From: Blastobasis lacticolella
Taxonomy: Eukaryota; Arthropoda; Insecta; Lepidoptera; Blastobasidae
Assembly: GCA_905147135.1 (NCBI GenBank)
Contig: LR990041.1
Span: 620,001 to 684,000, forward strand
Reading direction: 5' to 3'
Length of the DNA stretch: 64,000 bases
The notes beneath the pieces were generated by a model. The model searched no databases, had not been told where the DNA came from, and worked only from the letters and a program-made list of their open reading frames with translations. The translations under genes and the position numbers were made by a program. Positions 28,678 through 52,464 of the stretch are shown here, one piece after another (position 1 is the first letter of the stretch; each line of letters starts with the position of its first letter).

Positions 28678-28703
28678 TGACTTGCGTGAATCATTAATCA
28701 ATC
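28678..28703. other. Candidate left integration junction (HIM right arm)
   Basis: The text 'ttgcgtgaatcattaatcaa' matches the right arm of the complete HIM-like palindrome at 42.23 kb ('tagcgtgagacattaaaaaa') at 17 of 22 positions in the longest alignment, in the orientation expected for a circle opened there. Left of it the similarity stops. The match is short and AT-rich, so this call is less certain than the right junction. Confidence 0.5.
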
Positions 28704-29489
28704 CATTTAATGACATACATTCTCGTGCTATCGAAATCTATGCTAACGCCCTCTTGCTCCAATCAAAATGCTTCTTGATCAGGGGTTATCAACGAATTCT
28801 AACCCCAGCCGTATCTTGAAGTTCGAATTATCTTTTGCTGTTGGCAAACGCACTTGGCAAATACATAATTTTTCTACAGGTCATAGGTATTACGAAAAAT
28901 TCTTTGTGAACTTGTCATCCATGCTAACTGCCACTGATGTTGACCAGTGATCAAAATATGCTTCTACAGTAAACACAATTGTTACTATTGCTCTTCTTCT
29001 TGCTAGTGATGACTCTCTCACCAACAATCGCCAGCTCACTTATACGTAGCAATTCACACTAGTCCATTTTGGGTAATATTTACTGATCTATCATCACATT
29101 TGTATTTCACTATACACTTGTCTTAATAACATTTTGAATCACTCTAATGCTAGACCCTGAAGAACCATCAAATTTTTTTGAAGAATCAAGTACATTAACA
29201 CTTTGTAAATTATAATGTACTGCGTTAGACTAAAAACAGCTGCATATCGTTGCTTTCGAAGCTTTATCACAGCATTGGGTATCGAATTGGATTCAATTTC
29301 AATTTTATGTAAGTCTACAAATCATTGCAGTGATAATACGCATACTTTCATTGCTTTATCAACATCAAATGGATAAGGTGCGCATAAAAAGATGTCGAAC
29401 AAATCACGATGAAAAATCCAAAAACATATGTAAACTATCCAACAATACCTCAATTAAGATTTTTGAACGCTTATGACATCATTCAAGTA
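28704..29489. other. Viral non-coding stretch
   Basis: No gene is recognised between the candidate left junction and the end of the split PTP gene. Short frames such as 28768-28950 show no family resemblance. Long non-coding spacers are normal for bracovirus segments. Confidence 0.4.
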
Positions 29490-30014
29490 TCAAAAAGTAA
29501 TAGGAGACAGCTTCTTCTCGATATAGGCTCCAAGCAATTGGTAACACAGAACATAGTTTTCTAAGCGGTTCATAAATCCATACTTTTGCTGCCGCACTTT
29601 CTTTAGAACTCTTGGCACACATAGAGTCCCCGTTTTCTCAAATTCTGCAACACATATATCAAATACGCAAAACACTTCAGAGCCAGTGAGCCCGTCCAGG
29701 CACTGCAAAATCATAGGAGCAGTTTTTTTGTCAGCTTGTCTCTCCAACTGAAGGCACAAGTCTTTCACGTTGCAATAAAAATCTATGAATGCATCCGGCT
29801 GATGGGAAAAGTTGTCCCACGGCCACGCAGTGTATTGACATTGGGAAATTTTGTGCTCGTGGCCAGACTGGTTGGTCAGACTCAGCAAAGTCAATTTGTA
29901 GTGCGGTTTCTCACGAACCTCCAGAGTCTTTATCTTAAACTTATCGCAGACTGTCAAACAACCCTCATCCGGGAACAAATTTTGGTTACTCTTCTTGTCA
30001 CTGAATCGATCCAT
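29490..30014 (-). pseudogene. Bracovirus PTP-like gene, C-terminal part (cut by LTR element)
   Basis: This is the C-terminal two thirds of a protein tyrosine phosphatase-like gene whose N-terminal part is at 35118-35466. It shows the PTP fold signatures QCQYTAWPWDN (WPD-loop region) and the position of the catalytic loop, here QCLDGLTGS instead of HCxxGxxR: the Cys is kept but the preceding His and the phosphate-binding Arg are lost. The final helix text RQQKYGFMNRLENYVLCYQ is typical. Even before the insertion it was therefore probably a pseudophosphatase. The reading frame would be continuous across the 4-bp target duplication, so the gene was open when hit. Family role: bracovirus PTPs act on or sequester phosphotyrosine targets in host haemocytes. 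Confidence 0.85.
30011..30014. repeat. Target site duplication CCAT (left)
   Basis: CCAT directly precedes the left LTR and is repeated at 35118-35121 directly after the right LTR. This is the 4-bp duplication expected of Ty3/gypsy integrases and dates the element as inserted into the PTP gene. Confidence 0.8.
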
Positions 30015-30519
30015 TTTGGAGGTCTTGAGTAGTAGGATTAGTTAAACTCCGTAGACAAGTGTGGAATGGATGTATTTACAGAAAATGTGCCTAACTATAT
30101 TTACAAATACGTACTACCTAAACTTGTGTGATAGATCTAGTAAAAATCTATTTGCATTGACCAATGGGAAAGCCCGCCGCGAGATAGCTTCCCCCACCAC
30201 GCCGCGCGCCGGTGTGGTGCCGCTATAAATTGGAGGCGCAGAGCGGCGGACGCCCATTTGGCCGGCGCATCGAGGGACAGCACATCGGAGGAAGCTCGGC
30301 GCGCACGGTGGCGACTACAGCGGCGGCGAACTCCGGTGGTCTTCTGAAACTGCGCTGGGGCTCCGTGGCGTGAAGAATAATCGAAGACAAGTCGTTCTTT
30401 TCAGAACGCAATCCTGAGTTTCATGACAATACGCTCTCTGTGGCTAAATACGCATTCGTTCTATTTATTATAGAACACGAGTTTCACGACTTTTATACGA
30501 ATACAATACGGTAGCCACA
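30015..30519 (-). repeat. 3' LTR
   Basis: 505 bp, indistinguishable by eye from the 5' LTR at 34613-35117. Read on the minus strand it starts TGTGGCTACCG, has a TATA-like CGTATAAAAGTCG near the start, and ends CCTCCAAA. Confidence 0.9.
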
Positions 30520-30529
30520 GTACTCCCCC

Positions 30530-33500
30530 TCAAGCGAAGCGTACAGGTAGTTTGGTGGTGCGTCCGGCTCGTGTCTTGTGTTGTGTTGGTCTCGTGTTTC
30601 GCATTGTGGTCGGCTGTTGTCTCGATGTAGGTATCTTCGTTTCAGGGTCGTTTCTGTTGATTTGTTGTCGTTGGGTAGTGGAGTTGTATTCATTTTCAGC
30701 GGTCTCGTTCAGTGTGTAGGCAGGCTTGAGTCGGTCGATTGATATTTTAGCTTGTCGTTGTGGTAGTTGAACGGTAAATATTTTTCTGTCTCGGTCAATG
30801 ACCTTGTAGGGCCCCTCGTACGGTGGTTGTAGCGGCTTTTTTACAGCGTCGATTCTTACGAAAACGTAGCTGCAGGTTTGTAGGTCTTTATGCACGAAGA
30901 TCGGTCTGTTGCTTGCATGTGATGGTAGTGGTTGCTTTGGTTTCAGAGTGTTGATTGTTTTTCGTAGTTGGGATACGTAGTTGTAGTCGGCGACTTGCAG
31001 ATTTTCGGTTTGTGTAGTGGTAGCAAAAAAATCTCCAGGTAGGCGCAAGTTGTAGCCGTAGGTAAGTTCGGCAGCGCTGATATTTGTGTCGTTACGTAGT
31101 GCGGCTCGAAGTCCCAGCAAAACGGTAGGTAATTCTTCGATCCACGTAGTTTGTCCGGAGAGTCGCGTTTTCAGTGCCGCTTTTAAACTGCGATGCCAGC
31201 GCTCGACGATACCGTTTGCTTGCGGGTGATACGGTGTTGTGCGTGTTTTTTCTATTCCCATTATTTTCGTTAGGTAGGTAAATAGCTGGCTCTCGAACTG
31301 TCGTCCTTGGTCGGTTGTGATGGTTTGTGGGCAGCCAAAACGGGTTATCCAATGTTCGTAGATTACTTTCGCCACGTCTTCGGCGGTGATTTCTTCGGTA
31401 GGTATTGCTTCGGGCCATCTTGTAAGTCGGTCGATCATTGTAATAAGATAGCGGTAGCCGTGCCGCGTCGGGGGTAGCGGTCCGACTATGTCGATGTGGA
31501 TGTGCTGAAATCTGTCTGCCGGTGGGAACGAAGATAGTTCGCTTGACGTGTGGCGATGTATCTTACATTGTTGGCAGCGTAGGCATTGTTTGGCCCAGGT
31601 GCCAACGTCCTTGTTCATCGATGGCCAAAAGTATTTTTGCGTGACAAGCTTTCGGGTGGTGCGTACTCCTGGGTGGCTGATGTTGTGGACTGCATCGAAT
31701 GCTATCTTGCGGTACGGCAGCGGTAGGTATGGTCGCATGTGTTGAGTAGACGTCTCGCAGTATAGAGTAGTGTTCGAGTTAGGTAAAGTAATTTTACGTA
31801 GGCATAAATTACTTTGTTTCTCGAGCTTCGTTATCGTGTTGTCTCTTTCTTGCACTCTTGCGATTTCTTCGTAATTGAGTGTCGTTGGACAGGCGATACT
31901 TTCGACGCGGCTGAGGGCGTCGGCGACGACGTTATCTTGGCCAGTCACGTGACGAATGTCGGTGATGAATTCGCTGATGAATTGCAGTTGGCGTGCTCGG
32001 CGCGGTAGCTCGGATGGCGATGGCGACTTGTGTAATACGTAGGTAAGCGGCTTGTGATCGGTGAAAACTATGGTTTCTCTTCCTTCGAACATTTTTCTGA
32101 AGTGCTTGACTGCCATGTAAATAGCTAGTAGTTCGCGGTCGAATGTACTGTACTTCTGTTGTGCGTCGGAGAATTTCTTCGAGAAGTAGCCGAGTGGTTG
32201 CCATCTGTTACAGATGCGTTGTTGGAGGACGGCTCCAGCCGCTTTGTCGGAGGCATCTGAGAATATCGCCAATGTTCCATGGTGGGACGGGTGGGCGAGT
32301 AAAGCTGCCTTTTGAATGCTGGCTTTACAGGCTTCGAATGCAGATGTTGATTGGTCGTCCCATTTTATTTCCGTTTTGTCTTTCCTCTTCGAATTATGTA
32401 GGTAATTACTGAGCGGGGCTTGGATGGTAGCGGCGTTAGGTATATTCTCTCGGTAAAAGTTGAGCATGCCGAGGAAACGTCGTAGCTCTTCGATCGTCTT
32501 CGGTTTCGGAAAATCGGCGATTGCATTGATTTTCTCTTGTGGAGGTTTTATTCCGTGCTTCGAGACGTGGTACCCGAGGAAGTTGACTTCGTCTTTGCCA
32601 AACACGCATTTCGAAGGGTTGATAGTAATGCCGTATTCTTCTAGTCGTTGTAGGACTGTTCGAAGGTGTTTCCGGTGTTCATCTTCGGTTCGGGAAGCGA
32701 TGAGGAGATCGTCGACGAATGGAAAGACGTAATCCAGCCCTCGCAGTACTTCGTGGACAAACCGCTGAAAGGTTTGCCCAGCGTTGCGGAGGCCGGGGCA
32801 CATGCGTGGGAACTCGAACAATCCGAACGGTGTTATTATTGCCGTTTTTTCGATGTCTTCTTCCTTGATTGGCAATTGTTGATAAGCTCGGTTCAAATCG
32901 AGCGTAGAGAAGACTTGACAACCGGCGAGGTGGTAGGTAAAATCTTTGATGCGTGGTATCGGGTAGCGGTCGGGCTTCGTAATACTGTTTAGGCGTCGGT
33001 AGTCGCCGCAAACTCGCAGGTCACCGTTTTTCTTCGGTACGATGTGTAAAGGTGATGCCCACGGGCTCTTGCTCGGCCGGCACAATCCTTGATCGATCAT
33101 GCTTTGGAATTCGTTCTTGACTCGATCGTAACGATTGTGAGGTATGGGGCGGGCTCTGCAGTACAACGGTGGTCCGGAGGTCTCGATGAAATGTTCCACG
33201 TTGTGTTTGGGGTTGAGTTTCATCGAAGTGATGCGAGTGATTCCAGGGAAATCTGCTAGAATACTGTGGTAGGACTGTTGCAGGTCGATGCTTCGAACTG
33301 TAGGTATTTTCGTGTGACAAACTGGTGCGTTGACTGCTAGGTTTGTGACGTCATCGATTAGTCTGCGGTTCTTGAGGTCTACAATCAGTCGGTGATGTTG
33401 AAGAAAATCGGCTCCAATTATTGGTCTGCTGACGTCGGCGATGATAAATTTCCAGCGGTATGGTCGGCGTAGGCGTAAATCGAGATCCAACGTCGTTTCG

Positions 33501-33733
33501 CCGTAGGTAGATATCGCGGAGTTGTTGGCTGCGTAGAGCGTGAATGGCAGCGGTTGCGGTCGAGTTCCTTTCCTCTTCGGTATGACGGATATATTTGCAC
33601 CCGTATCTACTAAAAAGGTGAGTTTCGAGTTTCTGTCAGTGACGAATAGGCGGTGTGCTGTACTTGAAACACTGGTTTCCGCCACAGCCAGTGTTTGTTT
33701 TAGTTTTCCGACTTCTGTGCGGTGAATGAGCAT
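30530..33733 (-). CDS. pol: LTR element Pol polyprotein (protease, RT, RNase H, integrase)
   Basis: This 1067-aa frame encodes all enzymes for retrotransposition. Domains in order: aspartic protease with [13 protein letters not shown] (DTG at residues 43-45); reverse transcriptase with catalytic VDD in [11 protein letters not shown]; RNase H with [13 protein letters not shown] and FTDHKPLTY; integrase with the HHCC finger ending CLRCQQC, then the DDE core ([28 protein letters not shown]). It overlaps the end of gag in another frame, so it is probably made by ribosomal frameshifting. There are no internal stops, so it looks active or recently active. The frame ends 13 bp before the 3' LTR polypurine tract region. 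Confidence 0.92.
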
Positions 33734-34560
33734 GGCGACGTGCAGCGTCTGGCGCGATCTTCAAATCGGCGATGGTAGTAGCAGATTGGGCGATGCGGCG
33801 AGTGCGGCCGGGGTGGCGAACGGGACGGTGGTCTGCGGTGGTAGCGCTGGTACGATGGGCTTCGCTGTCTCGAGCGTTGGAAGTGGCCGCGTGTCGATTG
33901 CTGCGCTCGTCCTTGCTTTAGTTCCGCGACCTCCATACTAAGCTTCCGAATTTCTTCGAGAAGGGTTTGATCGTGGGTTTTGTCTTGAGCTTGAGACGCA
34001 GGTGTTGAGGACACGGCGGACACTTCGGGCGACTGTTGTAACACGTTGTCGGCGAGGTTCGCTAAGTCGTCTAGTTTTGCGGTTTTGTTGATATTTTCGC
34101 TGACGGCGATTGCAGAGCGAACGGTAGGTGGTAGATTTTTCTTCCAAAGATGCTGCAGCACTGGTTCGGACAGCTTTCCTCGGCTGAGCATTTTCATGTG
34201 GCGTAGCAGCTGGCTGGGTGTGCGATCGCCTAACTCCACTTCGTTAAGCAGCTTCTCGAGTTTCCGCTCGTCGCTCTCTTCGTAGACGCTGATGAGACGA
34301 CTTTTCAGCGTGTCGTAAAATTCGGCGTCGTCGTTAGGTGGGTCGTAGATGATGTCGCACACTTGTTCCAGCTCTGGTTTGCCGAGTTGCGCGATGATCA
34401 TGTCCACCAGCTGCCGTTTTCCTTTTTTCTGATCCGCTGTGACCGACTCGAATCTGTAGAACCATAGTCGTGGGGTGTCGCGCCAAAACTGTGGGATGCG
34501 CAGCGAGAGAGCGATGCCTGCAACTTCTTGCTGTTCCCGTTGATAGTCTTGAGTCGCCAT
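33700..34560 (-). CDS. gag: LTR element Gag
   Basis: 286 aa, starting at ATG 34560 some 50 bp inside the 5' LTR. The N-terminal and middle parts carry capsid-like text ([16 protein letters not shown], then [18 protein letters not shown]), as in insect Ty3/gypsy gags. Near the C-terminus is the finger [18 protein letters not shown], a C-H-C-C arrangement instead of CCHC, which is diagnostic for the CsRn1 clade. A basic Arg/Ser/Pro-rich stretch precedes it, probably for RNA binding. The end overlaps pol by 34 bp. Confidence 0.9.
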
Positions 34561-34612
34561 AGTTCCCGGTGCTAAGCTGTGTTCTTGCTTCTTGAACGGC
34601 GGTGGTCACCAC

Positions 34613-35117
34613 TTTGGAGGTCTTGAGTAGTAGGATTAGTTAAACTCCGTAGACAAGTGTGGAATGGATGTATTTACAGAAAATGTGCCTAACTATATTT
34701 ACAAATACGTACTACCTAAACTTGTGTGATAGATCTAGTAAAAATCTATTTGCATTGACCAATGGGAAAGCCCGCCGCGAGATAGCTTCCCCCACCACGC
34801 CGCGCGCCGGTGTGGTGCCGCTATAAATTGGAGGCGCAGAGCGGCGGACGCCCATTTGGCCGGCGCATCGAGGGACAGCACATCGGAGGAAGCTCGGCGC
34901 GCACGGTGGCGACTACAGCGGCGGCGAACTCCGGTGGTCTTCTGAAACTGCGCTGGGGCTCCGTGGCGTGAAGAATAATCGAAGACAAGTCGTTCTTTTC
35001 AGAACGCAATCCTGAGTTTCATGACAATACGCTCTCTGTGGCTAAATACGCATTCGTTCTATTTATTATAGAACACGAGTTTCACGACTTTTATACGAAT
35101 ACAATACGGTAGCCACA
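34613..35117 (-). repeat. 5' LTR
   Basis: 505 bp. On the minus strand the TATA-like CGTATAAAAGTCG at about 35085-35097 and downstream region would drive the element's transcript. The primer binding site begins directly beyond its inner end. Confidence 0.9.
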
Positions 35118-35466
35118 CCATCATCACAATAACTCGCACCTTGTATTCCCACACCATTTCCCAAAATTTTCCGCCGACATCTTGCTGGCTTTTGATGCAA
35201 ATATACTTCCTCTCGATCTCATAACCGTCAACAAAAGTGGCGCCGAGAACAGTCTCGTGACTTTTGAGCTTTACGTGACGATGAAGATGGCGCTCAAGCT
35301 GAATACCACCTCCATTTTCACTTTTATTTCCATCCTGGATTGAAGTTTTCAGCAGTTTTTCTTTTCTAGGCACTATGGAATAATATTCCGCCACGATACT
35401 AGTTAATGAGTCGCGTTTGCTTATGAAACGTAGAAAATCATTTCCATTTATAGGCAGAGTTGCCAT
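35118..35466 (-). pseudogene. Bracovirus PTP-like gene, N-terminal part (cut by LTR element)
   Basis: From ATG 35466 the frame reads through PTP landmarks RHVKLKSHE, GATFVDGYEIERKYIC and KFWEMVWEYKVRVIVMM, then runs into the LTR. It pairs with the C-terminal part at 29490-30014. A TATA-like element (GGTATATAAG, minus strand, plus coordinates 35551-35560) lies about 85 bp upstream of the start. The landmarks correspond to motifs in the other two PTP-like genes here (GASFINGYD, DFINASWVDGY). Disrupted, so no full-length product is expected. Confidence 0.85.
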
Positions 35467-35550
35467 TTTTTCAAACTAAATTAACACTCACTGCTGTTGA
35501 TATCTAGACAATAGTTCTTTCAGACTAACTTCCATTTTACAGGGCTTGGA

Positions 35551-35560
35551 CTTATATACC
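35551..35560 (-). promoter_or_regulatory. TATA box of the split PTP gene
   Basis: Minus-strand GGTATATAAG upstream of the PTP start at 35466; an initiator-like TTAGTC lies about 30 bp downstream. It now drives only a truncated transcript, or a fusion into the LTR element. Confidence 0.5.
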
Positions 35561-35569
35561 CATTGCATG

Positions 35570-36700
35570 CCGACTGCAAACTACGCACCTATCAGACCAT
35601 TAACTTAAATTAATGTGTGCGTTCACCCACTGCTACGTTTCGTGTGATGGTCATTCACTTAATTAACGTAGGTGGTGTTTACTTTTAGCTACTTGTTTGT
35701 AAACAGTAAATTCACAATCGAAGCTACTGAACTTCTGTTTATTAACCTCATTTCATTAATATAATTAGTATTTCATTCAAATTGTTTTCAAACATGCAAT
35801 TTTTGAGCCTAAATTGGAGATACTATTTTTGTATATCTATCCCCCAATTAAAATGACATTGAACTTCTCCATTTTCCTGTAAAAACATAAAACTTTAAAC
35901 ACTTCTTTGTTGATAAATTTCAAGTATAATCCATAGTTGTCTATAGATTACGTAATTATTGAATTAACTCATCAACGCACGTTTGATTCAGCAACAGCTA
36001 ATTACTCGCCGACAGCTTTGTACAAATAGATTACGATAGTATGGTAGCAGGCCTTTATACTCATTTTTCCAGTTTAATTTATTACTCACACGTAACTGTA
36101 ATTATCTTAATTGATTCGATTGTTTATGAACAATCTAAGTTTAGCATAGTGGGTGTTAAGGTCAGGACATACCACTTGTTCAAAGTTAGTAAATTAATTA
36201 AAAACTATTTTAGGCTTTAGAAGGTACCTAATTGTTATTGTAGTGTTTAAGGTTATAACAAGGGTCAAAAAACTTTGATAGTGCTAAAGCTTCATCCGTT
36301 ATTAAACATCAAAATAAATCAATACGAATGTTTGCTAATTCAACACATAGTCGTGAAGGGTTCTTTATGTCTAGAAGCTTTTCACCATTCATTTATTCTC
36401 GCCTACGCAGAAACAATCCCTAGAACTAGATTTGTTTTATCTACTATAGGAAACTGTGGGCGTTGTTTTGCTAATTAATTACATATAACCTTTTAGAAAA
36501 TAAATTAAAAGCTATTCTATGAATTAGAACTTATGGTGGTAGAGAAAAAAAACATTTTTATTAGATGATTTATTTTAAATACATTTAAGTGTCTTACAAT
36601 TTACTTATAATTTAGGAAATACTACTACATCTACTTCAGTCTTTCTTCAATGGGTTAGGACCATCAAAAGCGTCACCATCGGTAATATAGTGTTCTGTAC
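35570..36700. other. Viral non-coding spacer
   Basis: About 1.1 kb with no recognised gene between the split PTP and the 227-aa gene. AT-rich, no clear repeats. Confidence 0.4.
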
Positions 36701-36701
36701 A

Positions 36702-37382
36702 TCATGAAAATTCTCTGAACCTTAGATCTTTCTGCATGTGAGGTGGAAGCATATCCCAGACCCTGCTGATATCGTCTTTTGCATGCACCAAGATTAATCT
36801 CTCGTCCAAACAAGCGATATCTTCAGGGTGCATCTTTGTAAGAGTCTGAAGTTGGTAGAAAAGCTGCAGTGACTTCTCCATCGATGGTTTCTGACCCCAA
36901 CAACTTACGAACCAGCTTTTCATGCGTTGAACTGTTTCAAACGCACAGGCAGAGTCACTGATACTTGAGTGCTTCTCTTTGAACCAGCACATCTCATCCG
37001 GATCAAAGCTATCCAGACATTCAATATAAGGCATCTTCATCAGATCAATGATCTTCGACTGATGACCCGTGATTTTATCAAGCCACTGTTTCTCCCTTTC
37101 ACCCAACACGTAAAGGTACGCTTTGTTCTTGACGATTTCCATTAGTATTTCTTTCAGAGTTGTGTAGGAGGTTGATCCTTCTTTCCATTCAATTCCATGG
37201 GTCTTCAGCCAGAAGTCTGCGGTCTCTGAGATCTTGCCTTGGTTGCTGTACTCTGCTGGTGGCTTGAACATCTTCAATACAGGAGTATCCGATCCATCGG
37301 TCAGTGAAATGGCGGCCAGTTCTTTTATGATAAAATCATCATTTTCGGTGTAGAATCCCTCAAAATCAATAAACAACTCCAT
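36702..37382 (-). CDS. Bracovirus-block protein with DnaQ-like N-terminus, 227 aa
   Basis: ATG 37382 is chosen because a TATA-like CAATATAAGAACG (minus, plus coordinates 37460-37472) and an initiator TATCAGTTAC (about 37432-37441) lie just upstream, so any start further upstream would precede the transcript. The protein begins MELFIDFEGFYTENDDFIIK. The D-x-E spacing followed by a 'KELAAISL' strand resembles the DEDD-type 3'-5' exonuclease (DnaQ/RNase H-like) fold found in many uncharacterised arthropod proteins. Later catalytic aspartates are not obvious, so activity is doubtful. The frame is intact. It lies between the split PTP and the multi-exon family. Function unknown; homology call is tentative. 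Confidence 0.55.
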   Translation of the reverse strand: MELFIDFEGFYTENDDFIIKELAAISLTDGSDTPVLKMFKPPAEYSNQGKISETADFWLKTHGIEWKEGSTSYTTLKEILMEIVKNKAYLYVLGEREKQWLDKITGHQSKIIDLMKMPYIECLDSFDPDEMCWFKEKHSSISDSACAFETVQRMKSWFVSCWGQKPSMEKSLQLFYQLQTLTKMHPEDIACLDERLILVHAKDDISRVWDMLPPHMQKDLRFREFS

Positions 37383-37737
37383 CTTGTGCACTGGTGAACT
37401 TGATCCAAGTAACACGTAACGAGACTGGCAAGTAACTGATAAAGCTTTCAATAGCAAGCGTTCTTATATTGTTCACCCCACCCGTGAAGTATGATACAAT
37501 GATGATTAATTCCTAGCCATGAATAAATACATACATAAATCGATGGAATTAATGTTTAAAGTCACCAGTAATGAGTCATCATTGTGGTTTATTGTAACTA
37601 TCAATTTCCCTGGTTCGACATCCTTATTAGGAGTTGTTTTCATGTAGGTTATTCTTGATTATCCTGCGTGATGGATATGACTAATTTCCAGTGTATTATT
37701 CATGGCACTGTTGAAAAATGCCTACGGACAAAACTTA

Positions 37738-38023
37738 CTACGGACAAATAATATCACGGGCAAGAAAATGAACAATTATTCGCTTGAAACAACATACAAA
37801 ACTCACCAAGGACTAATGTGAGTATGAACACCATTAATTTTTATTAAATGGTCTACTAATTTAGACAAAGCATTCACTAACTTTTAATTTTTTTTGATTT
37901 TCCAGACCTCGAACAGTATTCGTCCAGGTTATCCCAGAGGATGATCCACTTGCACGCGTGAAGAAAGTTTCTGACAATCAATGGGAAATGACGTGTTATG
38001 ACACTCTAATTGCTTCTAAGTAA
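37738..38023 (+). pseudogene. 5'-truncated remnant of the six-exon gene family
   Basis: Two exon-like pieces match the fourth and fifth exons of the family. The first ends in 'actcaccaaggactaat' at the donor GTGAGT (about 37818). The second starts after the acceptor TTTTCCAG (about 37905) and carries VKKVSDNQWEMTCYD, the most conserved motif of the family, ending at a GTAAATTG. Exons 1-3 and 6 are absent. It is thus a fifth copy in decay at the upstream edge of the array. Confidence 0.6.
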
Positions 38024-38769
38024 ATTGTTTTATTATTTTATTACATATAACTTCTTCAAAAATAAAAAAAAGAGCTGTATTTATTTCGTTATAATTAAAA
38101 AAATTTGTTACTTTTGGTGATTATTAATTTTTGCTCATAACCTGAAAATACTAGACTATTTTTGGTCTCCTGCGCATATGAACGGAGTTGATGCGAGACT
38201 GCATCTCAACTGCTTCTTATGGTAGTCACCGTACTGTACATACGAGGAATCCTTCCGATAGTTGAGCACCACTGCTCTTTAGAAGCATTCTCAAATAAAC
38301 CTGAAAAATAAGCTGATAGCTGAAACAAATTATGTCAAGAGAAAATTGAATTGAACTGATTAATAGCAGGAATAATTTATTTAATTAAAAGATCGCAAAT
38401 ATTTTTAGAGAGTTATTAATGTTTACAAACAACTTGCCACGAGGTATCATGTACGATCTGTTAATCAGAGTGGGGGAAGCTACCGCAAGACATATTGTAG
38501 GAAGAGTGTGCAGAGCTGACGCCTGCGTGAGATAACCTACCGACTGAACTCTGCCTAGCCGACGAAAGAAATTCCAATAAATATTTTGAGATCAATGTTT
38601 CTGCTATTCGAATGTAACCACATGATTACTCACCGCATATTTTCCTGTTTCAAGAGCATTAAGTAGTGCCGAAAACTTTTGATATCTCAGTTGCTACTGC
38701 GAGATCGTTCCAGCTTCAGTGTTGTGCTGATTATTTATCAAAAATAAATTATTGTTATAAGATTAAGAT

Positions 38770-43729: not shown

Positions 43730-44176
43730 CTATCAATCCGAAAATAATCATACGCCTCATACCGCGAACCATTTGATACAATATGTTACTCTCGATATGT
43801 ATCATGACCAGAATAAACACTTGAGTTAATATACGTGTATTATTCAACGCCCTTCTACTTTCCTTGAAGTTCAGTTACTTTTCTATCGACAAATAGCAGT
43901 AATTATTTTTATGTGAACCATAAATCATAAATCAAATCATAAAAATATTTGTTTGCATGAACAGTAATTGAGTACATAACATCCTTTTCAGTTGTAAATT
44001 GTAACTCGGAAATTTAATCAGGCGCATTATGGTGATGATAATTATGACATCCGCTGTAAAATTTATTGACTTTTATGTGAGTCCATAAACTCTAATTAAG
44101 GTCAAACTATAAACCACAAGCCATAAACAACGAGCTAATTAAATTTTGTTCATAGTTCTGGAATGACCACCCTGAA

Positions 44177-44606
44177 GGCATAGACCAGGTAGCTCAATTG
44201 GTAGAGCAGCCGACATGTAATCGGAAGGTTCTGAGTTCGAATCCCAGCCCGAGCTATCCCGAATTTTTTCTCACATATTCTATAAACTCCCATTGAGATG
44301 GCCCTTTCCCCATCCTTTCTCAATCCCCATCCTTCCCTCTATCCTGTTACGTGAAGAAGTGGAACGCTTCACATAATAAATAATCCGTAACTCCTACTCT
44401 TTCCTGCTTTACAGCATTAATTGCATTCAAACCTGTTGGATTCAATAAAGTTTCTGATTGTTTTACTAAGAAATTCTCAAAACCTTCAAGATTCTGTAAT
44501 CAGTTTAGGTCGCGACCTTTCTTCGAATAACTGGTTACAGGGATTTTTCCTTGTATCTTTAGTCTTATCAAGTTTCGATAACTCTGTCGGTGAATTAGTA
44601 AACAAA
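44177..44606 (+). repeat. 430-bp duplicated block, copy 2
   Basis: Near-identical to 40010-40439. Here it follows gene C by about 450 bp instead of lying directly between two genes, so it marks where another gene copy may once have stood. Confidence 0.85.
44183..44254 (+). tRNA. tRNA-Thr(TGT)-like sequence, copy 2 (possibly pseudo)
   Basis: Same as copy 1, including A33, with one extra acceptor-stem change ('gaccagg' for 'gaccggg') that weakens pairing further. Anticodon TGT at 44216-44218. More likely a pseudogene than copy 1. Confidence 0.4.
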
Positions 44607-44609
44607 GGT

Positions 44610-45604
44610 TGATGTATTGTTAGTAGAAAGAGAGTCAAATACTGTAACATTCTATTAATAATTATCAATAAAACTTTTAACAACCATAAGAGGTTTGTTT
44701 GTTCTTGCCATCATAAAATATCAACTATTTTAATTACCCGCAAATGGTAGTATATTGATTTTGAAGGTTATAAAGAACAATTGATTGATTGCCACATAGT
44801 GGAACATAAACAAACCTCTTGAACAATGATGTACCAATCAATATAATGATTGCTCTAACTGGCATTTTATCGCCATATCGGGACAATTAATATCATACCT
44901 CAGCTCCGTGAACATTCTTCATTCGAGCCAATATATTCTATATCTAAATACTGTAGGAATCAACGGGAATATTCTCAGACAAGTTAATTAATAACAAAAT
45001 CTTGATAACATCGAATACATTTAAAACGTTCTAAGAAACGCCATAAAGGCCCGATAGCAAAACAAAGATAACAGAAAATTATTCACAGTTGAAATAATTA
45101 TTAGAATATGGAGATAAAAATTGATCTAAACTCTGTACGGTTCCAAGTTCTTCAAAAAATTTGGTACTAGGCATCCTGATGTTTCTGAAGATGACAATTA
45201 GATGTAAGTTTTTGATGAGACACAAAACTCTGATTCGTCAATCACCAATTTTATTTTGGAGAAAGTCAGAGTAAGAAGAGTGTAATTGTACTGTAGAGTC
45301 AATTTCAGCGAAACACATTGTTCTATATACTTTATGAATATCGTATGAGTGACAAATTAAACGCTGACCTTGGTAGTGGGGTTTTCCGTTGATAAGTATA
45401 ACTTTTGAATTGGGAGCTTCATTGTTTTGTACGGCATGGTCGTGGTTGGACGCATTTTCTCGAAATTTATTTAGGCGTTTTGAAAATCAATTTAGAGTAA
45501 GGGAAGTGAAAGAATAATTTATAAAAAAAGTTTAGTGTTTTGTCAAGCATCAAAGGTTTGTAATTTAAAAATTTATAAATTTACTAATTTCAAGTGATAC
45601 AATA
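44610..45604. other. Viral spacer, possibly with decayed gene pieces
   Basis: No open gene. Around 45.17-45.23 kb text resembling an exon 1 end and donor ('gacaattagatgtaagttt') hints at a very decayed family member, but the match is too weak to annotate. Confidence 0.3.
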
Positions 45605-45608
45605 TTAA

Positions 45609-46181
45609 GGTAGTTCCTGCGTGAAACCACTTTTCGAGAGATTCTTTTCAAATTTTTTTGACAAGTTAGGAACAGTGTTTTTTATCGATTCCTAGAGTTT
45701 TTGACCATTTATATCGCGAGATAAGGAAAAAGTTCGCGATTTCGAGGGTTACTTTCCACTCAAAGTATGTAAAACGTCAGGTCTCTTCAACGATTTTAAA
45801 TTATATTAAAAAATTCTCTCGACAGAATCGGAAGAAAAAGTAGGAGTGTGGAATGATGTTTGTAGAATAAGTTAAAAAAATAAAAGTACCACCTCACCAT
45901 TTTGTTTTAAAGATATTTAAATTAAAATATTAATTTTTTATCCATTTCCAACCTCTTCATTTTACTGTTCATTGTGATCTGGCAACACTGTACGCAGCGC
46001 TCCCTGAAATAGTGTTGAACAAAGTGCGCGAAATTCAAATCTTTTACAGTTATAACGAGCAACGTTGCCAGATCACCGTAACTAAAAATATTTGACTGTT
46101 GTGTGAGCGTCTGTGAGCCGAGGCTATTAATTTTTGACCATAGTAAATGCTCTGACTATACTATACCTCGCTGGAACTACC
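45609..46181. mobile_element. TTAA-flanked MITE (piggyBac-like target)
   Basis: The ends GGTAGTTCC and GGAACTACC are inverted repeats, each directly flanked by TTAA (45605-45608 and 46182-46185), the target duplication of piggyBac-type transposases. An inner inverted pair 'gatctggcaac'/'gttgccagatc' (about 45977 and 46066) could form a hairpin. It is 573 bp and has no coding frame. Whether it entered in the wasp or in the present host is not known. Confidence 0.65.
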
Positions 46182-46265
46182 TTAAACATATTTTAAATGA
46201 TAAATTATTCGAAATCCACTGACACGTTATTTAAATAGTCTTGGAACAATTTTTTAGAAATAATC

Positions 46266-47103
46266 ATGGAATATCAAAATATTCTCCCTGATATTCAAGT
46301 CCCCATTGAATGGCCAGTAGGGGCTTTGAGAGACGCCATTTTGGAGGTGGCCCAGATGGCCATCACACATTTTGAAAGGGGTCAGAGAACAGTCATAAAA
46401 ATACAAGATGTGATAGGGCTGATCTCATATGACGACATCACCCAGAAATATGTTTTTCTTAGAACGCAAGAAATGTAAGTTTGATACTACTTTCTGCACT
46501 TGTTTTTACTTTTCGAACTACTAGATCTTTACTTCTATTCTCCGTTTTCAGAAACCAGGAGGATACTTCAACCCTGGAGTTGATTATCCGATAAGCATTA
46601 AGGGTAAGCTTATCGGATATCGGAGCTTATTCATGGATGAATGGAGCGAGAAATACATTGGAGATTGAGTATTACTGATTAGTAATTATCAATACCTGAG
46701 GATCTGAGATGCGACCACCCAATTTTGAATTTTACAAACAGATTGCTCTACAATTAGAAGGTATATTTCCTTAATTTCTTAGGATAAAATTTTGCGTGAT
46801 TCCACTTTCGAACTATTCAAAGCAAGTTAAGTCTTCTTTTATTAATTTTCCTGAACATTTTTCAGACTTTCAAAAACATCAGGCCCTACGTCCACAGCAG
46901 ATCCTGTCTGAAGCTATAAAGACTTTGGTAAGTCGTTGCATTTAATTCTTGGAGACATTTTCCATTTTCCCGGTCCATAAAAAATATGCCGACAGATCGA
47001 AAGTTAAAATTTCAGAAAAGCAGATGTAACACGGTCTCAATTTAATATTAAACTTTTGTTACAGTTGATGGCGCAGCTGGGAAGTACCATAGATTTAGCT
47101 TGA
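46266..47103 (+). pseudogene. Six-exon family gene D (frameshifted, decayed)
   Basis: Exon 1 (46266-46474) is open, begins MEYQNILPDIQVPIEWPV (closest to gene A) and ends at a good donor. Exon 2 begins at 46552 but meets a stop within 15 codons; a one-base shift restores text similar to the exon 2 core of gene A, so there is a frameshift. Downstream only exon-5-like (46866-46927) and exon-6-like (47065-47103) pieces with splice signals remain; exons 3 and 4 are lost or unrecognisable. AATAAA follows at about 47190. Confidence 0.6.
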
Positions 47104-47378
47104 CCGTTTTCAGCTTGACCATTTCTACTAATTTTGTAAACATTCAGCGACCTCAGAAGAAAAAACTGTGATATTATTTTAAATATTTTTAATAAACTTC
47201 TCAATAATTGACGATGAAATTTTACTTACATTATTACATACCATAATACTCACAATCAGTAAATTCATTTTACACAGCCCTTAGTCAAAATTAGAGAAGA
47301 CAATTGGAAAAATACGAGATCAGATAAAAAACACTTAACTTCTAACTTAATTTTTAGATACCTTTAACATTAATTGAC

Positions 47379-47891
47379 CTAGTCTTCACTTTCACTGCAT
47401 TCACTTTCACTGTCACTTGAATACGGCTGATGACAATCCGCGCCGAATTCCAGGAAGATGTCCATCATCTTGAAATCGTCTCTCGTCCAAGCGACCTCAT
47501 AAGCAGTTAGACCTCCATAGTCACAAGCCTCTAAGTCCACGGTAGCCTGCTGACACATCCAAGTTGCCAGCTCGTAATCCTGATAGACGACAGCTATATG
47601 AAGCGCAGTACTTCCAGAAGTTCTGTCTGGTGCGTTCAAGTCTGCCCCCATCTGCTCCAGGATTTCCAGTAACTGCACTGCCTTCTGTCCTCTATGACTT
47701 CGTGCTATGATGTGGACACACTGATGTCCTTCAAAATTGTAGTCCCGCAGTAGAGATTCGTTGTCATCATTCAAACACCATCCAGCTCGCAGGAGAAGGG
47801 ACGCACACCCATAACGACAAATGTCATGGAAGAAATTGTCTCCATCGGTGTTCATTGCACCGAAAATTTCGCTGATTACAAGAGACTTCAT
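47379..47891 (-). CDS. Viral ankyrin-repeat protein (IkB-like, vankyrin)
   Basis: 170 aa with ankyrin repeats: NFEGHQCVHIIARSHRG, then SGSTALHIAVVYQDYELATW and GGLTAYEVAWTRDD, plus a partial N-terminal repeat. The C-terminus is acidic and serine-rich (SDSESECSESED). Length, three to four repeats and lack of the IkB regulatory ends match the ankyrin family of bracoviruses, which bind Rel/NF-kB factors in the host and hold them inactive. The frame is intact. A TATA-like GATATAATCG (plus 47974-47980 region) and an initiator TTCAGTC about 29 bp further lie upstream. It lies opposite to the preceding family gene D. Confidence 0.85.
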   Translation of the reverse strand: MKSLVISEIFGAMNTDGDNFFHDICRYGCASLLLRAGWCLNDDNESLLRDYNFEGHQCVHIIARSHRGQKAVQLLEILEQMGADLNAPDRTSGSTALHIAVVYQDYELATWMCQQATVDLEACDYGGLTAYEVAWTRDDFKMMDIFLEFGADCHQPYSSDSESECSESED

Positions 47892-47944
47892 TGCTTCTGA
47901 TGAGAAAAAAAATGTAGAACTGTCTCAAAGCGATGCCAGGGTAA

Positions 47945-47983
47945 GACTGAAGTAAAGTTGTTTCGAACTCCCGATTATATCAC
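47945..47983 (-). promoter_or_regulatory. Core promoter of the ankyrin gene
   Basis: Minus-strand GATATAATC then, about 29 bp downstream, TTCAGTC. The same TATA-TCAGT layout occurs at family gene C and the 227-aa gene, suggesting a shared promoter type in this segment. Confidence 0.55.
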
Positions 47984-47984
47984 A

Positions 47985-48655
47985 ACCGGGAACACCAAAT
48001 AGGTACTGGTGTATTTGTATAAAATCAATTTATGTGCATGATTTACAAGTGGATTTCCCGAAAGATAGCGGCCTGAATTTGTTTTCAATAAGTCATAACA
48101 ATCGTTCAATGTTTTCCTTTTGTGCTCAATAATAACAGTCGTTATTATGGCATGGTACTCTATAAGGTCTTTGAAATGGATTCCTACATAAATTATGACT
48201 GATATGGCCAAGCCTGATACCATTCTTAATCTAAATAACAAGATAAGTGTGTTGAGATGTCCGTCAATTTAAAAGTGTTCTGCTGTAACACAAAGCTATT
48301 ATTGTCTCATGAATAAAGCCTACGGTTTATAATCATTTTTTACATAAACGACAGATCGGCTTTTATGCAGACCCTACTAGATATAAGCGTAAAAACCATC
48401 GAGGATAAATACTGGTTCTAAATATAGATACACTCTGGAATAAACAATTCAGATTAAGGAAATTTGTATAAATATGGTAAAGCAGTCCTTATTTCTGTCG
48501 ATATAAGGTACAATATTTAATGAGAGATCAACTGACGGAAAATAACTTGGATCAATTACTTCAACTATACAGGCAGAATATTAGAAAACAGATTATCAAC
48601 ATTAGAATAACAAACAAACTACGTGTTTGAGCTTTTGATACATTTCAAAGTGTGT
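47985..48655. other. Viral non-coding spacer
   Basis: No gene recognised between the ankyrin gene and the second PTP-like gene. AT-rich with short frames only. Confidence 0.4.
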
Positions 48656-48659
48656 CAAT

Positions 48660-49556
48660 TTAAGAAGATTCTCTTTCATCTAGATATCTTTGGCTCCATC
48701 CCATTTCTCCTAAGACAAAGACATGCATGGCTTGATAGCAGAAAGTGTAATCGTCTATACGGTTCAAGCAACTATACTTTTGCCGTCTTAGTTTCTGAAG
48801 AGTCTTGGCCACTGACAACGTACCTGTGGACTTGAACTGGGTAACACAAATATCAAGGATACAGTACACTGCCGAGCAGCTGAGACCATCACGGCAGTGG
48901 ACCATAACAACTGTAGGCCTCGCTTCAGCCGATTGCTTCCTTTTAAAAATGGTATATGTTTCGTTCAAACTGCACACAAAGGACAAGAACACGAGCGGAT
49001 CATCTTTAACGCTATTACGCCAGGCAGTGTACTGATAATGCTGAATCTCACGCTCACGATCCGCGCGGTCAGACAGACGCAACACTGTTAGAGTAAAGCG
49101 AGGCTTCTTAGAGATCTTCAGCGTCTTCACTCTAAACCCTCCACACTCTATCTCACTGCCTTCAGTTGGACTCCAATACTGGTAGCTTTCTTCCTCAGCT
49201 CTTCGGGATGCTTTGACAATAGTTGTGACTTCACGACGCCACGCTAATTTCCAAAACTTCTCGCAGTCTTCTTCTTTCGGGTTGCTGACGCAGATATACT
49301 TCCGTTGTCTGTTGTATGTGTCGTAGCCATTTATAAAACTGGCACCGTGGTACCTCTCTTCTGTCTTCAGACAGCGAAAAAATTTGTGGGCTAGCTTTAA
49401 GCATCCACCGCAGTCAGCCTCATCGTCAGGTTCTTCGAAACTTCTCCGGGTCAGCTGAATGGTATTGTATTCTTGATAACTCAGGTCGAGACAGTACGGA
49501 TCATCCATAAGGATCAAAAAATCCATGGCCGAAATGTCTGGGAATTCTGCAGTCAT
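48660..49556 (-). CDS. Bracovirus PTP-like protein, catalytically degenerate
   Basis: 298 aa, complete from ATG 49556. PTP landmarks in order: GASFINGYDTYNRQRKYIC, KFWKLAWRREV, YQYWSP, IQHYQYTAW, and the catalytic loop VMVHCRDGLSCSAVY. The nucleophilic Cys of HCxxGxxR is present but the Arg is Cys and the last Gly is Ser, and the WPD aspartate loop reads WRNSV. It should therefore bind phosphotyrosine poorly and not hydrolyse it. The closing RRQKYSCLNRIDDYTFCYQA is typical. Many bracovirus PTPs are similarly inactive and may act by binding targets. The frame is intact. Confidence 0.88.
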   Translation of the reverse strand: MTAEFPDISAMDFLILMDDPYCLDLSYQEYNTIQLTRRSFEEPDDEADCGGCLKLAHKFFRCLKTEERYHGASFINGYDTYNRQRKYICVSNPKEEDCEKFWKLAWRREVTTIVKASRRAEEESYQYWSPTEGSEIECGGFRVKTLKISKKPRFTLTVLRLSDRADREREIQHYQYTAWRNSVKDDPLVFLSFVCSLNETYTIFKRKQSAEARPTVVMVHCRDGLSCSAVYCILDICVTQFKSTGTLSVAKTLQKLRRQKYSCLNRIDDYTFCYQAMHVFVLGEMGWSQRYLDERESS

Positions 49557-49559
49557 GTT

Positions 49560-51180
49560 GGTTTACAAATCACTTCTGGGGGAATGAGTCCACTTCCTAA
49601 GGCAGTAGCTTTTGAACTAGTCTCTCGGTGGCTACTGTTTTAATTATTAAGTATAATGACACCCTGGTGGTTAATAAATTAATTAATCTAAAGTGTAGTG
49701 AGCCTGTAGGGCATTCAGATCGCTGTGAGCAAGACTTTAATTACCACTAAAGTCAACTGACTTTTAGTGCTCTCGGAAACCTACCCCCTGAGCGGTCGTT
49801 AATTCTCTACGACTTTACTGTGAAATTAAGTAATTATTCAGCTCCTGCTGGGCAGACGTCGATCGTGCCCTTCCAAGAGACTCTTGAATGTAATTCCTAA
49901 CCAGACTGAGCTCAATCGAGTAAAGAGGCGGCTTTTAAACCAAAAATTACTAAGACACCCCAGACTGGGAAAGTTATTAGATTTAATGGGATTCATTGGT
50001 AGTTGACGAGACGAAAAATTATATTATAATTTGTTTATTGATAGCAAATAATGAGATAATCATCTCGTGAGCTATTTTCCAATGGAAATATCAAGAAATA
50101 TGAAGTAGAGAAAATAACAAATCAACGCGTAATTGAAGTATGAATAATCAATTAGTAGCATCGAAGATATTTCAAGCGTTTCTAAGTTATATGCAAAACG
50201 AATAGAGTTGACTCTCAAAACCTGTTTTCGCTATAAGCGAGCTTCAAAGAAAAATTTCGTTTATGGTAACCTCTGTCGGCAGTTATTTGATATAAAACCA
50301 ACAAATATGAGTTTTAAATTAATAAAAACAATGTTTAACAAAATTATTCCGTAAGTGTCCGTTTGTCTGTATGTAGCGAAAACCGCGTGGTCACGATAAC
50401 TCCCGAAAAACTTAACTGATCTAGTCCATTTTTTTTCCAAAAGGTTTAGTATTATCCTAAACTAAGTCCTTTCGGAGATCGCGGTCTAATTCAACGTAGT
50501 TTAATTGTAATTAATATTATAAAAATACGACTGGACATTTTGTTAGTTGTATATCTATATATATATATATAGTATATACTTAGTAAGCTTAAGTCTGTTC
50601 ACAACGCTTGCGTGGTATTGTACTGAGTTAAAAAAAGGGCGCGAAGCATTCTTTATTCAAAAATAATTAATTAATAAAACTAAAATGTCTCAATCTTATC
50701 TTTTTTATTTATTTTTTTTTGTTTTAAGTTTTTTCTTTTAATTGAGTGATCGCTATGAGGCGTGCACTTTTGGATTTTCCAAACTTTTTTTGGTCTGCGA
50801 GTACTGTATCTCATATTCTTATTGTCGTACTTTACATTAAAGAAATTCTTTCGAAAGTTGAGCACCACTGGTTCCTTGGCGCAACAAGCGCACATAGCGA
50901 CTAATCAGTGTTCAAATTCCATTCAATTACGTGCTCCTTGCTCCGTGCGGAGTCAAATGAGCGCCAATAAGACATCACGTACTGAAGGTTAATACAATTA
51001 CAACTCGTAACGTATGAAAATGTTGCATCAGGTTTCGTTCATGGCTTGAACCCGATATTATACCATAACACTCTATTGAACTTGTGATTCATTGCCTTTC
51101 AGGAAAATATAAAATTAAATACTAATATTATCATCGTAATGACACCACATCCAATTTATGTAAAGTATGAATAATTAAAT
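49560..51180. other. Viral non-coding stretch
   Basis: About 1.6 kb without a recognised gene. Contains a TA microsatellite (about 50560-50580) and a T/A-rich region at 50.69-50.74 kb. At 50.34-50.47 kb there is repeat-like text ('gtctgtatgtagcgaaaacc'). Confidence 0.4.
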
Positions 51181-51257
51181 TGCTATAAATTATCCTTAAT
51201 GAGGAAACAATAGTTATTTGATCTCTAACCTCTGTCAGGGCGTGTCTTCCTGTGATC

Positions 51258-52118
51258 ATGGGCGAAACATCATCCAAAAGTAGTGAGACTTTTGATGAAT
51301 ACCAACCAGTTGTACAAAGAATTGAGGAAAATTTGAATTTGAAACATAAACACAAGAAGTTATTGGAGGAGAGTCTCGAGTTATCGTGGAGCATAGCGGA
51401 ACTGCCAGAGAACGCTAGAAAAAATAGACATTCGAACATGTGCTTCGACTACAACCGAGTGACCCTCCCAGAAAGCGATGGAAGTGACTTCATCAATGCG
51501 TCCTGGGTCGACGGCTATAAGGCTCCAGGGAGATTTCTGCTCTGCCAGGCGCCTCTTCGAGAGACTGTCCAGGACTGGTGGACTATGATACTCACTTACA
51601 AGACAAGAGTGATTGTGATGCTGAACAGAATCATCGAACAAGACCAAGAAGCTTGTTTTCCCTACTGGAGCCAAGTGCAGCATACATCAGTCAACTTCGG
51701 CAAGTTCTCTGTTGAAACCAAGAAAGTTAAAGTCTTAAAAGATCATGTCGTTACTGATCTCCGTGTGACTGATGGCAGTGGAGCTTCCCTGGACGTGGAA
51801 CACTTTGCATACACCGACTGGCCTTCCGAGGGAGTTCCTCAAGATCCTTCAGGCTTCTATAAGTTTCTTGTGAAAGTGAGAAAAGCTCAAGAAAAAGCCG
51901 AGCTCCAACAAAGTGAATTTTTTCCAATGCTAATACATTCTAGGGCCGGATTAAATCGAGCCGGTGCTTTTGCGGCTATCGACATTTGCTTCACTCAATT
52001 TTATGATAGCAAAACAATAGACCTTCAGTCAGTCGTGCGAAATTTACGTAGGCAGAGACTGAATTGTTTATCGTTGCCGCAACATTACGTTTTCTGCCAT
52101 CGTCTATTTTTGAAGTGA
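51258..52118 (+). CDS. Bracovirus PTP-like protein with catalytic Cys replaced by Ser
   Basis: 286 aa from ATG 51258 (an upstream GTG is not used). Landmarks: RHSNMCFDYNRVTLP, DFINASWVDGY, DWWTMILTYKTRVIVML, YWSQVQ, FAYTDWPSEGVPQDP, and the loop LIHSRAGLNRAGAF. The loop keeps H, G and R but has Ser for the nucleophilic Cys, and the WPD aspartate is Ser. A Cys-to-Ser PTP cannot form the phospho-cysteine intermediate but may still bind phosphotyrosine. The N-terminus MGETSSKSS fits an N-myristoylation site, hinting at membrane targeting. A TATA-like CTATAAATT lies at about 51183. AATAAA is at about 52158. The frame is intact. Confidence 0.88.
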   Translation: MGETSSKSSETFDEYQPVVQRIEENLNLKHKHKKLLEESLELSWSIAELPENARKNRHSNMCFDYNRVTLPESDGSDFINASWVDGYKAPGRFLLCQAPLRETVQDWWTMILTYKTRVIVMLNRIIEQDQEACFPYWSQVQHTSVNFGKFSVETKKVKVLKDHVVTDLRVTDGSGASLDVEHFAYTDWPSEGVPQDPSGFYKFLVKVRKAQEKAELQQSEFFPMLIHSRAGLNRAGAFAAIDICFTQFYDSKTIDLQSVVRNLRRQRLNCLSLPQHYVFCHRLFLK

Positions 52119-52421
52119 CCCTCTGTGATAGTATTAAGAATTTGTATATTTTGTGTTGAATAAAGCTCAAATTTTTACTGTAGTACCTTTTTGTGCCCTT
52201 AGATATCACATTCCTTAAACCTACATCTACTAATTTGCATGTTGAAGCATTGAAACTGAGATAACTGATAGTCATAAGGTAGAGAATAACAAAAGTATTA
52301 ACATAACCGAAATAAGCGAATTTTATGCTATAGGTTGGATAATTCATTTCCACGCGTCATTGCTATCACTTAACGTTAAGCGCACGCGCGTTAAGTCGTT
52401 GATTCTAATTATAGCTTATCA

Positions 52422-52464
52422 GGAGACTCGGTAGTATCTCGCGCCAAATACATGTTCAACATAT
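52422..52464. other. Right integration junction (cut HIM left arm)
   Basis: These 43 bp match the left arm of the complete HIM at 42104-42146 at 35 positions, ending in the same 'caacatat'. The complete motif continues 'cgacggtac', whereas here the sequence continues 'taaacccaag', so similarity stops exactly within the HIM. That is how an integrated bracovirus circle ends. Confidence 0.75.

Follow-up and report, generated by a model that had tools for sequence, protein, structure and literature searches.

A bracovirus-type circle, opened at its host integration motif and bordered by a three-base target-site duplication, in a chromosome of the moth Blastobasis lacticolella

The genome assembly of the moth Blastobasis lacticolella (Lepidoptera, Blastobasidae; GCA_905147135.1) includes, in a stretch of 64,000 nucleotides of contig LR990041.1 (positions 620,001 to 684,000 of the forward strand, hereafter the window), a large insert that carries protein tyrosine phosphatase (PTP) genes, an ankyrin-repeat gene and tandem repeated blocks. 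The analysis confirmed that this insert is a bracovirus-type circle that was opened at its host integration motif (HIM) and inserted in a long interspersed nuclear element (LINE) of a lepidopteran chromosome (Table 1). Its limits were set by its ACAG...CTGT ends, by the TTT target-site duplication (TSD) and by the split LINE frame. A sequence-only reading of the window had proposed a near-complete bracovirus segment at 28678..52464, limits that proved too narrow as the insert begins 590 bp before and ends 867 bp beyond them; the about 18.7 kb that it had estimated after removal of a long terminal repeat (LTR) element become 20,137 bp when the nested gypsy element is subtracted from the measured insert. 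The same reading described lepidopteran repeats on the two sides. The flanks are lepidopteran, as the neighbouring gene RSPH9 indicates, but these repeats are two parts of one jockey-like LINE open reading frame (ORF), ORF2, on the minus strand, split by the insert with a 3-bp target duplication. Joined with one copy of TTT, the host flanks read EIKNVLNTFNPKKAPGPD. The E-to-D spacing of the joined LINE frame is 18 residues with one TTT and 19 with two, and it is likewise 18 residues in the second LINE of the window (one comparison only). The frame alone is undecisive, since 3 bp preserve it, and it is the agreement of the 18-residue spacing with the second LINE that argues for an empty site with a single TTT. 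The GC content is 0.36–0.37 in pieces of the insert versus 0.39–0.41 in the flanks.

The genes of the insert appear from their sequence to be of the bracovirus virulence type: two PTPs with a catalytic residue missing, one broken PTP and one ankyrin protein. The three PTP-like genes and the viral ankyrin gene noticed in the sequence-only reading were recovered by Pfam (Y_phosphatase and Ank_2, respectively), its putative multi-exon gene family corresponds to the tandem repeated blocks (around 37.9–43.5 kb), and its later LTR element is indeed nested in the insert, with identical LTRs and a 4-bp TSD. Where HC(X5)R, the catalytic motif of PTPs, would be expected, the PTP at 48660–49562 carries HCRDGLSC. 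A class of bracovirus PTPs in which Ser replaces the catalytic Cys, as in the PTP at 51222, has been published (PMC3573978). The two pieces of the broken PTP were each scanned as an ORF extending some way into the LTR. No transposase domain was found in any of the 14 ORFs of at least 90 amino acids that the insert carries outside the gypsy element, a search that a spliced gene with short exons would escape. The insert acts like a transposon at its ends but has no recognised transposase gene, and it is not classed as a transposon. A 300-bp direct repeat (40010–40309 and 44177–44476), 99% identical, encloses blocks that are only 73–81% alike, which suggests gene conversion or a recent duplication.

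The two ends of the insert form a 28-bp imperfect inverted repeat in which 20 of 28 positions agree, a value reached by none of 20,000 shuffles. Read inward, the left end is ACAGGAATAATTTTCATGCAGAAACTTA and the right end, on the other strand, is ACAGTAAAGACTTTGATCGAGAAAGTTA. This inverted repeat is present in all of the nine copies compared (19–21/28). The HIM borders of Cotesia vestalis bracovirus (CvBV) carry the 8-mers TAAATTTC/GAAATTTA and the 5-mers CTGGT/ACCAG (PMC8460044). At the place of the 8-mer, positions 21–28 of both ends, the left ends of the nine copies read GAAACTTA, GAAATTTG or GAAATTTA and their right ends GAAAGTTA; the CvBV 8-mer is matched at 7/8 positions at both ends of the window insert and at 8/8 at the left end of the copy on contig C28 (6.16 Mb). 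The match to the published '8+5' motif of CvBV is partial when both of its parts are considered. HIM integration is expected to remove the 40–73 bp that lie between the motifs J1 and J2. The HIM-cut form proposed for the insert agrees with the presence of the inverted-repeat motif at both ends and with the absence of an uncut HIM next to 25 left ends, since the 600 bp before each of them contain only matches of chance size (11–19 bp) to the right end. Direct-repeat junctions at the ends, named beforehand as an outcome that would speak against a host-side insertion, were not seen, as no direct repeat of at least 40 bp connects the ends of the insert. Near the right end lies a conserved AGCT block, a candidate direct repeat junction (DRJ) or wasp integration motif (WIM): the 50-mer around it is alike at 32–46 of 50 positions across the 15 right ends compared, and a second conserved AGCT is found at 53278, in the right arm. 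The block fits the published description of WIM/DRJ (PMC4169385) and may be a DRJ, by fit to that description rather than to a known DRJ sequence.

Table 1. Features of the window, and lengths of related copies elsewhere in the assembly (contig, with position in Mb where needed)
Feature	Position	Strand	Remarks
Bracovirus-type circle, HIM-opened, complete as inserted	28088..53331		25,244 bp, of which 5.1 kb are an LTR element; ACAG...CTGT ends common to copies at other loci
TSD TTT, left copy	28085..28087		
TSD TTT, right copy	53332..53334		
LINE ORF2, reverse transcriptase half, recipient of the insert	26662..28084	-	'jockey-like' is our own reading
Same LINE ORF2, upstream part, opposite side of the insert	53335..54089	-	
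Left terminal repeat / HIM arm	28088..28115	+	GAAACTTA at positions 21-28
Right terminal repeat / HIM arm	53304..53331	-	GAAAGTTA at positions 21-28 from the end
Candidate DRJ/WIM	53121..53155	+	AGCT followed by some 31 conserved bases; distance to the right end 211 bp
PTP gene	51222..52118	+	Pfam Y_phosphatase 7.5e-64; HSRAG, Ser replaces catalytic Cys
PTP gene	48660..49562	-	Pfam Y_phosphatase 1.5e-37; HCRDGLSC, catalytic Arg missing
PTP gene broken by the LTR element, C-terminal piece	29490..30014	-	PF00102, 4.9e-21
Same broken PTP gene, N-terminal piece	35118..35475	-	PF00102, 9.8e-8; pieces not joined
Ty3/gypsy LTR element nested in the insert, splits PTP	30015..35117	-	TSD CCAT
LTRs of the gypsy element	30015-30519 and 34613-35117		identical, 505 bp
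ORF, 226 amino acids	36705..37382	-	without Pfam match; weak resemblance to banchine ichnovirus proteins (poor model)
Tandem repeated blocks	37892..43492		65-81% alike; repeat families D3, D4, D8-D10
Ankyrin-repeat gene, viral-ankyrin type	47379..47924	-	Pfam Ank_2 1.9e-9
Host RSPH9, two exons	15861..17408	+	first-exon ORF 15861-16355 searched; second exon is our own reading
Copy, 20.4 kb	C2:19.24		
Copies, 9.9 kb	C21, C14, C3		
Copy, 12.3 kb	C4		
Copies, about 11 kb	C28, C2:11.26, C24:3.02, C26:1.15		
Copies, 19-23 kb	C2:21.32, C16, C17:8.66, C2:15.34		
Copy, 21 kb	C17:15.44		
Copy, 30.2 kb	C26:11.87		
Copies, 5-6 kb	C6:15.17, C24:2.27, C6:21.90		

The window insertion is one of many related circles in the assembly, which holds 577 Mb in 45 contigs. 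The left 400 bp of the insert gave 37 matches in the genome and the right 400 bp gave 49, not all of these matches being ends. Twenty-four left ends have a common start (23 with ACAG and one, at C24:2.27 Mb, with ACAA), to which a copy on C17 (L038) adds one, and 27 of the 29 right ends inspected stop at CTGT; with the window counted once on each side, there are at least 24 further left ends and at least 26 further right ends. The lengths of the copies, derived from the coordinates of the 400-bp end matches, are given in Table 1. That the insert would be a whole circle, from one HIM cut to the other, as the sequence-only reading had considered, is supported by these copies because they start and stop at the same two points and several have one length. 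Left ends remained unpaired at C27:0.04, C11:0.42, C8:3.40, C8:3.56, C8:3.65, C8:19.97, C2:15.34 and C26:1.15 Mb; the right end was lost at C2:15.34, the right match of C26:1.15 lay outside the loci fetched, and C8:3.56 belongs to a pair excluded below. The flanks of the copies differ except in the pairs L011/L012 and L064/L065; because the members of each pair have the same flank, some copies are due to host duplication. The copies at C6:21.90 and C27:0.04 Mb, near two contig ends, have the same host flank, and a subtelomeric duplication probably brought the insert to a second chromosome.

An exact 3-bp TSD borders all of the 17 copies with two ends of the same family (16 copies and the C17 copy, which has GTA on both sides). 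In the 16 copies, the longest shared suffix/prefix is always 3 bp; when the ends of the 16 are re-paired at random, the number of such agreements has a mean of 2.59 and a maximum of 9 (10,000 trials). Among 33 distinct sites, T is the first base in 26, A the third in 27 and TNA is found in 22; position -2 is C in 12/23 and position +2 is G in 15/26. This set leaves aside L012 and L065 (same flanks as L011 and L064), L062 (right end lost), L066 (no end motif) and L038, as its site GTA already enters the count by way of L054, the right end of that copy. Insertion sites therefore favour the weakly palindromic TNA. Strand transfer by DDE enzymes is characterised by a constant stagger and by a symmetric preference for the target. 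The constant 3-bp TSD and the palindromic target bias thus argue for a DDE-type integration. The term 'target site duplication' was not found in the HIM literature searched (Heisserer et al. 2023 and subscription papers being outside it): 'target site' has no occurrence in the main texts of PMC8549517, PMC8460044, PMC7843510 and PMC9981800, and the passages of PMC3573978 consulted mention no such duplication. A host motif in common near ichnovirus insertion sites has been reported (PMC7843510). Within the literature searched, a 3-bp TSD at HIM insertions appears to be new.

The observations made at the level of the DNA sequence, namely genes of bracovirus type, ends in common, 3-bp TSDs, flanks from Lepidoptera and many copies, can be brought together as follows. 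Very probably, the HIM of a wasp bracovirus circle was opened in a germ cell of a lepidopteran, and a DDE-type recombinase joined the circle to the chromosome. In such a model, the circle would come from the bracovirus of a parasitoid wasp. Once it is opened, the recombinase would act on the two inverted terminal motifs (ACAG and the 8-mer at positions 21–28) and would make staggered cuts, 3 bp apart, at the weakly palindromic TNA, leading to the 3-bp duplication around each insertion. The exposure of the germ line would have been repeated and recent; this exposure, like the identity of the enzyme, is what we infer from the copies. DDE joining is preferred because a single step accounts for the ends, the TSD and the target bias.

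Several observations weigh against this model. A left end and a right end on C8 (3,558,178 and 3,529,701), 28.5 kb apart, are bordered by TTA versus TTT; this pair was excluded as its ends belong to different circle families, and including it would bring the count of TSDs to 17/18. The CvBV 5-mer ACCAG agrees with the terminal ACAGG/ACAGT at only 3/5 positions on the left and 2/5 at the right end of the window insert. In the library of viral structures, the 226-amino-acid ORF has banchine ichnoviruses, Glypta fumiferanae ichnovirus (GfV) and Apophua simplicipes ichnovirus (AsIV), at ranks 1, 3, 4 and 7, with 21–28% identity and E-values of 3e-4, 2e-3, 0.3 and 0.6 (a lead only, as the model has a predicted local distance difference test score, pLDDT, of 43). 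Finally, RNA interference (RNAi) in one bracovirus implicates tyrosine-type viral integrases as well as host retroviral integrases (PMC8460044).

A site-specific joining of HIM and chromosome by a tyrosine recombinase (XerC/D-like) is the usual proposal. Strand exchange by tyrosine recombinases gives no constant 3-bp duplication at varied sites. The 17/17 copies with a 3-bp TSD contradict this proposal, unless such an enzyme is limited to opening the circle and the joining is done by another; even though such proteins are found in bracovirus particles (PMC8549517) and RNAi against viral integrases reduced the integration of some circles (PMC8460044), it seems quite improbable here. End repair is still harder to reconcile with the copies: microhomology was reported at HIM junctions (PMC8549517, PMC7843510), but this route should leave deletions and variable joins instead of 17/17 exact 3-bp duplications, which makes it a highly improbable way of joining.

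Regarding the donor, the PTP at 51222 has 12 protein matches: four nameless proteins (72, 73, 53 and 76% identity), PTP1 of Glyptapanteles indiensis bracovirus (51%), PTPs of G. flavicoxis (50%) and Cotesia glomerata (53% and 49%), proteins of the moth Cydia pomonella (49%, and 70% for a partial one) and of Euphydryas editha (50%), and one choanoflagellate protein (31%). The closest named PTPs are thus those of Glyptapanteles, Cotesia and other lepidopteran genomes, in agreement with the horizontal transfer of bracovirus-type DNA suggested by the sequence-only reading. In the viral structure library, the best match of the PTP is that of Microplitis mediator bracovirus (39%), followed by that of GfV (32%; weak model, pLDDT 54), and the matches include PTPs of both GfV and AsIV. 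A search of viral contigs for relatives of two PTPs gave no match for one and no confirmed match for the other, and none of the 56 candidates of a protein search with the 226-amino-acid ORF was significant. The three PTPs and one ankyrin, the 28-bp inverted ends and the DRJ-like AGCT block fit a bracovirus, and the donor would be a circle of a wasp lineage. Banchine ichnoviruses also carry PTP and ankyrin genes. A banchine donor would account for the weak matches of the 226-amino-acid ORF and for the second rank of the GfV PTP; it appears improbable, as the PTPs are nearer to those of microgastrine bracoviruses (49–53% over 88–96% of the protein) and the AGCT block and the 8-mer fit bracoviruses. 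The different affinities of this ORF and of the PTPs might reflect gene sharing between banchine ichnoviruses and bracoviruses.

The window could also be wasp DNA, either from a circle re-integrated in a wasp genome, as known in Cotesia, or from contamination. HIM-mediated re-integration into wasp germ lines has been published (PMC8549517, PMC3573978). It is the host flank that makes this exceedingly improbable here. RSPH9 lies 10.7 kb to the left of the insert, and the ORF of its first exon gave 40 matches among 45 candidates, of which the 18 with a species name are all from Lepidoptera, the best being Pectinophora gossypiella (74%); this search gathers candidates through shared words, so that distant orders may not show. 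The flank is thus supported by its sequence as lepidopteran, not wasp, and the braconid flanks that the sequence-only reading had named as a refuting outcome were not found. Moreover, in the 45 contigs (577 Mb) of the assembly, 28 of the contigs C1–C30 carry PTP matches, some perhaps being host PTPs. Further along the left flank, 19229–20954 is a region of dense nested tandem and inverted repeats unrelated to the insert.

Over the left 0.6–1.9 kb, the divergence of copies is 0–4% inside a subfamily and 7–16% when several of the subfamilies are compared with one another. The window insert and the copy at C2:19.24 Mb share two mismatch-free blocks, of 1897 and 1629 bp, together with blocks of 92% and 97% identity; because these copies mix blocks of 100%, 97% and 92%, circles are, at the sequence level, mosaics. 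The copies at C28:6.16 and C2:11.26 Mb have one mismatch in 1689 bp over the left end. In a genome search for PTPs, 841 candidates yielded 132 scored matches, which lie on 28 of the contigs C1–C30; by our own count, 23 of the 132 contain stops inside the match, and those of low identity may include ordinary host PTPs. C8 makes up about 3.8% of the assembly yet holds 24 of the 132 matches (our count), several with stops; it may act as a sink for inserts, or be a chromosome with little recombination.

Two other PTP families, candidate circles known from their PTP sequence only, are found at about 35 places of similar score (of which 22 fall on two exactly equal E-values) and at 14 places at another score. 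Nine copies of the first family, compared over 789 bp, fall into two haplotypes set apart by two shared differences, none being private to a copy, and among seven copies of the second, compared over 786 bp, a single private difference occurs; the copies compared (9 of about 35 and 7 of 14) were picked for equal or nearly equal protein scores, a choice that in part accounts for their protein identity but leaves silent sites unaffected. Because these families occupy many loci nearly without private mutations, they are very recent, and colonisation would be recent and multiple. After parasitism, 12–85 somatic integrations per host haploid genome were measured over 16 circles (PMC8549517). As the PTP copy numbers lie within this range, a recent ancestor that was attacked once or a few times could account for them. 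The PTP family of L076 (C1:5.22 Mb) is 82% identical to an annotated PTP of Cydia pomonella, so that a related virus has probably entered other moths too.

Copies so similar might instead have multiplied inside the moth after one or few arrivals, HIM-bounded inserts being moved as large non-autonomous transposons by a host or introduced transposase. A transposable unit requires inverted ends and a constant TSD, which the inserts have, left ends are nearly identical at different loci (0/1897 mismatches between the window and C2:19.24 Mb, 1/1689 between C28:6.16 and C2:11.26 Mb), and the two PTP families have scores that are almost the same across their places (about 35 and 14, by our own count). 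However, wasp injections alone would yield the same picture, given the published 12–85 somatic integrations per haploid genome (PMC8549517), and the mosaic of 100, 97 and 92% blocks is unexpected from simple copying. Furthermore, a nested moth element common to the loci was not noticed in the partial sequences read, among which no systematic search was made. Supply by wasps needs no extra step, unlike movement inside the moth, which is rather unlikely. The repeat of the copies on C21, C14, C3 and C4 was considered as a shared nested retroelement, a sign of movement inside the moth, and ruled out, the intervening sequence of the C21 copy being PTP coding when translated.

A broader and tentative view would be that a DDE transposase/integrase pastes bracovirus circles at TNA with a 3-bp TSD, and that in the moth these form a transposon-like family that arrives in bursts of tens per germ line and possibly moves by the same ends. 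The enzyme that joins bracovirus circles to host DNA is unsettled, the published candidates being recombinases of the particles, host retroviral integrases and repair (PMC8460044, PMC8549517), and germ-line copies preserve both junctions. The constant 3-bp duplication and the palindromic target point to DDE chemistry, which is checkable in all lepidopteran genomes that carry inserts of this kind. Judging by the copy number, it seems that a lineage surviving wasp attacks can acquire tens of foreign circles through them.

Among DNA transposons, those of the PIF/Harbinger group generate a 3-bp TSD and prefer TWA/TNA. The present insert resembles them by its 3-bp TSD, its TNA preference and its inverted ends, and differs from them by the lack of a transposase domain in its 14 ORFs of at least 90 amino acids outside the gypsy element and by its bracoviral gene content. 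The somatic HIM integrations of Cotesia typhae and C. vestalis also have inverted motifs at the ends and varied target sites (PMC8549517, PMC8460044); these studies seem to rest mainly on chimeric short reads, each covering as a rule one junction. The insertions of Danaus and Spodoptera (Gasmi et al. 2015, PMC4574769) are also bracovirus DNA in lepidopteran germ lines but are partial, complete circles not having been found by their authors, whereas the present insert is complete. Polydnavirus circles transferred through HIM to lepidopteran genomes were likewise described by Heisserer et al. (2023); the features of the present case are full-length copies from several families, PTP families that occupy tens of loci within a single genome, and constant 3-bp TSDs.

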